From a virus, in IMG/VR virus record IMGVR_UViG_3300023178_000064, positions 1 through 53,108 of that record: a stretch of DNA of 53,108 nt, one strand, 5' to 3'. A program made the translations under genes and the position numbers. Each line of letters opens with the position of its first letter. Positions within the stretch are counted from its first letter, which is position 1. The notes beneath the pieces were generated by a model. The model saw nothing but the letters and a program-made list of their open reading frames with translations. It ran no database searches and was not told where the DNA came from. Of the stretch, positions 18,635-18,706 are shown one piece after another.

Positions 18635-18706
18635 TTACTTGTTCATTACATACATTGTAACTTCAAAGCCAAAACGCATTTCTGTATAGCTAGGTTTTGT
18701 CCACAT
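18635..18706 (-). CDS. pqqA: PqqA, coenzyme PQQ precursor peptide
   Basis: The 23-codon gene is too short for ordinary gene calling. The product starts [16 protein letters not shown] and continues TMYVMNK. It matches the PqqA family over its whole length (typical MWxKPxxxDxRxGFEVTxY). Glu15 and Tyr19 form the E-x3-Y pair that the radical-SAM enzyme PqqE crosslinks, with PqqD as chaperone, before the peptide is trimmed and oxidised to pyrroloquinoline quinone. A strong AAGGAG lies 6 nt before the ATG. It is alone on the minus strand between gp23 and a divergent RNA. No pqqB-E is visible in the window, so PQQ synthesis would need host enzymes. This is seen in sequence plus known family chemistry; expression is untested. 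Confidence 0.9.
   Translation of the reverse strand: [23 protein letters not shown]

Follow-up and report, generated by a model that had tools for sequence, protein, structure and literature searches.

Known pqqA genes of methylotrophs and their phages

Cyanophages carry psbA, a phage copy of a rapidly consumed host part that keeps energy metabolism running. PsbA is a protein subunit, whereas PqqA, the PQQ precursor peptide, is a consumed substrate for which the phages described here bring no enzyme. PqqE together with PqqD joins a Glu of PqqA to a Tyr of the same peptide, which is consumed on the way to PQQ; PqqA is not a catalyst, and one peptide is spent per PQQ.

In kind, phage-borne pqqA is already known from one T4-like case, the Lake Baikal Methylophilaceae virus VP_266, which encodes PqqA and a methanol dehydrogenase (Coutinho et al. 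2020, PMC7678222). As in the window studied here (the whole 53,108-nucleotide stretch of IMG/VR record IMGVR_UViG_3300023178_000064), PqqA is found in a T4-like phage with a predicted Methylophilaceae host, where it was read as an auxiliary metabolic gene (AMG) for methanol oxidation (PMC7678222); unlike in VP_266, no methanol dehydrogenase is seen within the 53 kb of our phage. The VP_266 report comprises one contig and one annotation, without a survey, a conservation test, an operator, or an anatomy of the cassette (PMC7678222). Viral pqqA, pqqD, and pqqE calls from reservoir sediments were reported as AMGs in 2026, but these were filed under phosphate solubilisation, and the peptide and its control were not analysed (PMC13188868). 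In the papers on phages MEP301, MEP401/402, Venkman, and Melnitz, pqqA goes unmentioned.

In the hosts, named Methylophilaceae genomes contain 3–12 pqqA copies and mostly a single pqqBCDE (PMC4109929). Like the phage gene, the stand-alone host copies, several of which occur alongside one pqqBCDE (PMC4109929), combine the same peptide with a ribosome-binding site (RBS), a terminator, and an upstream dyad. They differ in being chromosomal, with one copy in the operon, whereas each of 20 large viral contigs (41–356 kb) encodes exactly one PqqA and no biosynthetic enzymes. Compared with the open-licence literature, the breadth, invariance, candidate operator, and cassette structure of phage pqqA appear to be new. 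Relative to the first-pass annotation of the window, our analysis adds the minus-strand location of the gene, its breadth in phages, its host-type candidate operator, and the cassette structure.

The pqqA locus of a T4-like phage

The window is T4-like, encoding gp23, a prohead protease, portal, late sigma factor, SbcC-like gp46, and baseplate wedge, and is probably a piece of a larger T4-like genome. Its pqqA sits in a genuine phage genome, convergent with gp23 (Table 1). The plus strand at this site reads LLVHYIHCNF..., and the gene is therefore on the minus strand, running from 18706 to 18635, as a short free-standing peptide gene of ~23 codons with its own RBS. The encoded peptide exceeds the curated cut-offs of both PqqA models across their full length (Pfam PF08042, 46 bits, cut-off 21.1, E = 4.5e-12; NCBIfam equivalog TIGR02107, 47 bits, cut-off 20, E = 1.5e-12), a match beyond chance, and contains E15-x3-Y19. 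Judged from its sequence, it has every feature of PqqA membership, and no PHROG family covers it. The hairpin in the gp23/pqqA gap is usable on both strands, with a T-run 3′ of gp23 on the plus strand and a weaker TTTTCTCGTTTT on the minus strand. A tblastn search of the 53-kb window, probably a genome fragment, found neither pqqB-E nor a methanol dehydrogenase. The first-pass annotation had called a full-length PqqA with the E15/Y19 pair, a strong RBS, a terminator shared with gp23, and no pqqB-E nearby; all of this held up, including the coordinates.

Table 1. Features in and around the pqqA gene of the window.
Feature	Position	Strand	Basis or remark
gp23 major head protein, convergent neighbour of pqqA	17400..18578	plus	PHROG major head protein, 337.6 bits
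Bidirectional terminator hairpin, GC-rich, in gp23/pqqA gap	18596..18621	unstranded	sequence reading
pqqA, 23 codons + TAA	18635..18706	minus	translation, family models
Ribosome-binding site AAGGAG	18713..18718	minus	6 nt before ATG
Promoter-like TTGTCA-16-AATAAT	18722..18749	minus	consensus match only
pqqA operator-like dyad TTAATGATTTTCTGCAA, right half diverged	18755..18771	minus	65 nt upstream of ATG, 13.7 bits
manA RNA-like structured RNA	18836..19036	plus	RF01745, 47.4 bits, below gathering score 55.2
freshwater-2 RNA	19100..19183	plus	RF02980, 76.6 bits

The same region contains further elements on the plus strand. The manA RNA-like element has promoter-like and terminator-like ends, and homologous sequence occurs in T4-like relatives and in Pelagibacter phage Mosig. 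The freshwater-2 RNA ends at the ATG of a gene at 19181 and is kept in many gp23 relatives.

Recurrence and conservation of pqqA in phages

A tblastn search identified PqqA in 12 of 50,697 phage records, namely Venkman, P19250A, MEP301, MEP401, MEP402, four Melnitz records, the podovirus ctXG6705, and two Acinetobacter-named records. Each of the nine Methylophilales/Methylophilaceae phage records recovered from this collection, a count made without the Methylophilales phages MEP431-434 and Venkman EXVC038S, encodes pqqA, and together they represent several phage types. The annotation of pqqA is missing from all phage copies in these records; in ctXG6705 (L149, 2067-2195) and Melnitz (L153, 2961-3056), a deposited hypothetical protein on the opposite strand hides the gene. 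The plasmids that match pqqA resemble replicons of the hosts or chromosomes deposited as plasmids by mistake.

Host DNA contamination or misassembly would be a trivial source of such genes, and the two Acinetobacter-named records are the kind of case that would support it. The one examined, Acinetobacter phage MD-2021a (L154, CAKLQF020000010.1), holds a bacterial pqqABCDE and ppk and was discarded as mislabelled host DNA. In the window, by contrast, pqqA is flanked by gp23 and other virion genes in a placement shared with other T4-like loci (see below), pqqB-E are not alongside, and complete isolate genomes carrying pqqA refute contamination, which we regard as having a negligible probability here.

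To look beyond named phages, IMG/VR was searched with degenerate DNA patterns. The first pattern retrieved at least 120 contigs, and all 120 matches listed translate to short PqqA peptides. The second constrained the N-terminal half only and demanded neither E15 nor Y19; still, all 119 complete peptides among the matches listed are 23 amino acids long and contain both residues. Across codons 14–23, which the scan left unconstrained, pN/pS is 0.12 among the matches listed, with synonymous sites near saturation, indicating that phage PqqA is under strong purifying selection. A third pattern, for GMEx-type PqqA, yielded 51 contigs, one of them already known, all with short ORFs and plausible starts. 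The Pfam cut-off was passed by nine GMEx peptides chosen as representatives and by one additional peptide of the first scan, and several GMEx contigs have terminase, portal, or tail genes. When pooled, the IMG/VR loci number at least 235, with an intact copy in at least ~234; of 140 phage copies tested, 139 have an RBS and 129 have no overlapping ORF.

Viral contigs L351, L352, L356, L357, L364, and L393 encode alphaproteobacterial-type PqqA (GMEINMY, GMEVTSY), and one of these peptides is Methylobacterium-like and encoded in a 266-kb contig. An alpha-type query had no match in the named phage collection, although IMG/VR contains such contigs. The phage pqqA trait thus extends beyond phages of Methylophilaceae. 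Conservation of the peptide in related as well as unrelated phages, and of E15 and Y19 within it, had been proposed as a check on the initial reading, and both were borne out. The marine setting assumed at the time was not established, as both OM43 (marine) and LD28 (freshwater) have phages with the gene.

Cassette structure and absence of pathway partners

The gp23-pqqA synteny, which the first-pass annotation had suggested examining, recurs in seven further T4-like loci, where pqqA closely follows the 3′ end of gp23; the two genes converge in three of these loci and run in the same direction in four. In Melnitz, pqqA is placed elsewhere than beside gp23, and in unrelated phages it has recombination genes as neighbours or sits where two modules meet. 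On the gp23 tree, pqqA (scored as present only when beside gp23) is scattered, and well-supported branches demand at least three changes of state. Of the nearest gp23 relatives whose downstream sequence extends for 1 kb or more, a set of short loci taken irrespective of host, 49 of 57 lack pqqA beside gp23. The near-identical phages L083 and L289 differ by a ~200-bp pqqA cassette that is cleanly present or absent and comprises the upstream element, RBS, ORF, and its own terminator; its ends fall in CTTTTTTTATG terminator repeats.

This distribution could also be read as that of a neutral passenger, in which small stand-alone host pqqA units are caught by chance and lost again without any benefit. 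Chance pick-up would be favoured by host genomes rich in such multi-copy units, and both the scattered occurrence on the gp23 tree and the clean presence or absence between L083 and L289 agree with it. It is, however, difficult to reconcile with the strong purifying selection and the intact substrate residues in 119/119 peptides among the matches listed, with the presence of pqqA in every methylophage isolate record that surfaced, and with an operator kept in unrelated phages (see below), making a passenger unlikely.

The gene is a solo gene. In the first two scans, the surroundings of pqqA contained neither pqqB-E nor a methanol dehydrogenase, host loci having served as positive control, and the third-pattern set also lacks pqqB-E. 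PqqE was above the cut-off in none of 20 whole contigs, while a control host genome was positive. Two of these 20, both picked for that trait, encode a methanol dehydrogenase. Three viral contigs (L397, L399, and L400) pair pqqA with an XoxF-like methanol dehydrogenase at a distance of ~0.2–6 kb; L397 also encodes a molybdopterin formate-dehydrogenase-like protein, and L399 a phosphate-binding PstS-like protein and porins. The pairing in three contigs, together with the formate-dehydrogenase-like protein in one, supports a role of phage pqqA in methanol oxidation.

A candidate operator upstream of pqqA

An unseeded motif search of 122 non-redundant phage pqqA upstream regions recovered a 17-bp dyad, TTAATGATTTTC.TTAT, in ~80% of them, with a log-likelihood of 539 vs. 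~53 in shuffled sets. A matrix trained on non-T4 phages matches 17 of the 28 T4-like phages when the threshold is set at 1%; the reverse cross-validation from T4-like to non-T4 phages was weak (8/94), because the 28 training sequences yielded a shifted motif. Overall, the matrix matches 132 of 182 phage pqqA upstream regions (training data included) vs. 1.1%, equal to chance, upstream of other phage ORFs. The same phage matrix also matches 19 of 37 Methylophilaceae pqqA upstream regions, and most other Burkholderiales pqqA loci have dyad forms such as CTCATGAAAATCATGAG or CTAATGATAATCATGAG. An initial view of the element as a T4-like-specific promoter was dropped once the element had turned up in hosts as well as unrelated phages. 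For the T4 late promoter TATAAATA, tested as a possible pqqA promoter, no enrichment was seen in the window.

In 14 Methylophilaceae genomes, the pattern YTMATGAWWWTCMTKAG occurs at 24 places vs. none for the reversed control, and 22 of the 24 exact matches are located ~100–150 nt before a pqqA start, as judged by locus and coordinate. The remaining two have no pqqA just downstream (G304:C1:1569342, L416; G329:C14:24703) and may point to a further target or to the gene of the regulator. An exact dyad is missing from four of the 14 genomes, but the streamlined members of this group show near-matches ahead of pqqA. No dyad was found within 400 nt upstream of host methanol dehydrogenase genes, making it unlike a general methanol-oxidation site. 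We therefore propose the dyad as a candidate pqqA-dedicated operator in Burkholderiales; no paper describing it or its regulator was found in the open-licence literature.

The window contains one dyad site above 12 bits, at 18771 on the minus strand, compared to 1.85 expected in shuffled sequence, and its location rather than its score thus carries the weight. This site fits the phage matrix, yet divergence in its right half sets it apart from the exact host pattern. The promoter-like sequence overlaps TTTAAATAAT (18725-18734), whose spacing to the dyad is constant in T4-like relatives. With the dyad just upstream of the promoter-like hexamers, its position would fit an activator.

A dyad that is dedicated to pqqA in hosts and kept in phages might also act by itself, with the copies on phage genomes soaking up a host repressor and thereby derepressing host pqqA. 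Such titration presumes a repressor, while the regulator could also be an activator; moreover, the peptide itself is under purifying selection, and some phage copies, e.g. in MEP402, have no good site. We regard titration as improbable. We are inclined, if only slightly, to the view that unrelated phages of PQQ-makers repeatedly acquired a complete host control unit of operator, pqqA, and terminator, that the host pqqA regulator switches the phage gene, that copy number perhaps captures or titrates the cofactor regulon, and that only the consumable peptide is supplied.

Hosts and proposed function

Methylophilaceae were flagged among Burkholderiales via the RuMP enzyme model TIGR03128, and the identity of the sampled genomes rests on this enzyme, genome size, and peptide type. 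PqqA is encoded in all 100 sampled Methylophilaceae genomes, with a mean of 4.34 and up to 12 copies. The window peptide ends in VMNK, the type of streamlined Methylophilaceae, whereas other sampled Burkholderiales mostly have IANR, and genomes of 1.2–1.4 Mb encode a peptide identical to the commonest phage PqqA. On this basis, the window phage most likely infects an OM43/LD28-like methylotroph with a streamlined genome, and its pqqA is a homologue of a metabolic gene of this host group. The survey and the peptide type also agree with the PQQ-making host that the first-pass annotation had predicted, specifying it as a methylotroph. In one OM43 strain, xoxF is the most abundant transcript (PMC5120137), so that PQQ demand is plausibly high.

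Taken together, the window gene is probably a functional phage pqqA, an auxiliary metabolic gene (moron) that adds PQQ precursor during infection. The sequences show that the gene is pqqA, that its two substrate residues are intact, that it is kept by purifying selection and recurs among phages without pathway partners, that its peptide matches those of the host family, and that the operator is conserved; processing by PqqE, operator function, and a benefit to the phage are inferred, the last of these as in the first-pass annotation. The phage would express extra PqqA peptide, which host PqqD would present to host PqqE for joining of E15 to Y19, and the host protease, PqqB, and PqqC would complete PQQ. 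This PQQ could load the very abundant methanol dehydrogenases, allowing methanol oxidation and energy supply to continue in infection, with the phage peptide sustaining PQQ supply once host expression drops, similar to the part played by psbA in cyanophages. As the cassette includes a host-type operator, expression probably answers to the host pqqA regulator.

The same host enzymes would also be bound if the peptide were a decoy that ties up PqqD/PqqE and reduces PQQ formation or deprives competitors. The invariant reacting residues and the frequent identity to the host substrate argue for a substrate instead, and we consider a decoy or inhibitor highly improbable. Several points nevertheless count against a supply function. 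An extra copy might be redundant in a host that holds several, and overexpression of pqqABCDE in Methylovorus lifted PQQ only to a limited extent (PMC9851590). Most of the closest gp23 relatives have no adjacent pqqA, and the operator-like site in the window is half diverged.

The finding suggests that the supply of PQQ precursor is a bottleneck exploited by methylotroph phages in unrelated lineages, an idea that is directly testable since the gene is present in the cultured phages Venkman, Melnitz, MEP301, and P19250A. The medium published for H5P1, a host of Venkman and Melnitz, includes 1 nM PQQ, by which an effect of phage pqqA could be masked. It also uncovers a candidate pqqA operator in Burkholderiales. 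A gene that is possibly near-universal among methylophages is missed by length-limited gene callers, and the finding also bears on the reason why Methylophilaceae retain many pqqA copies.
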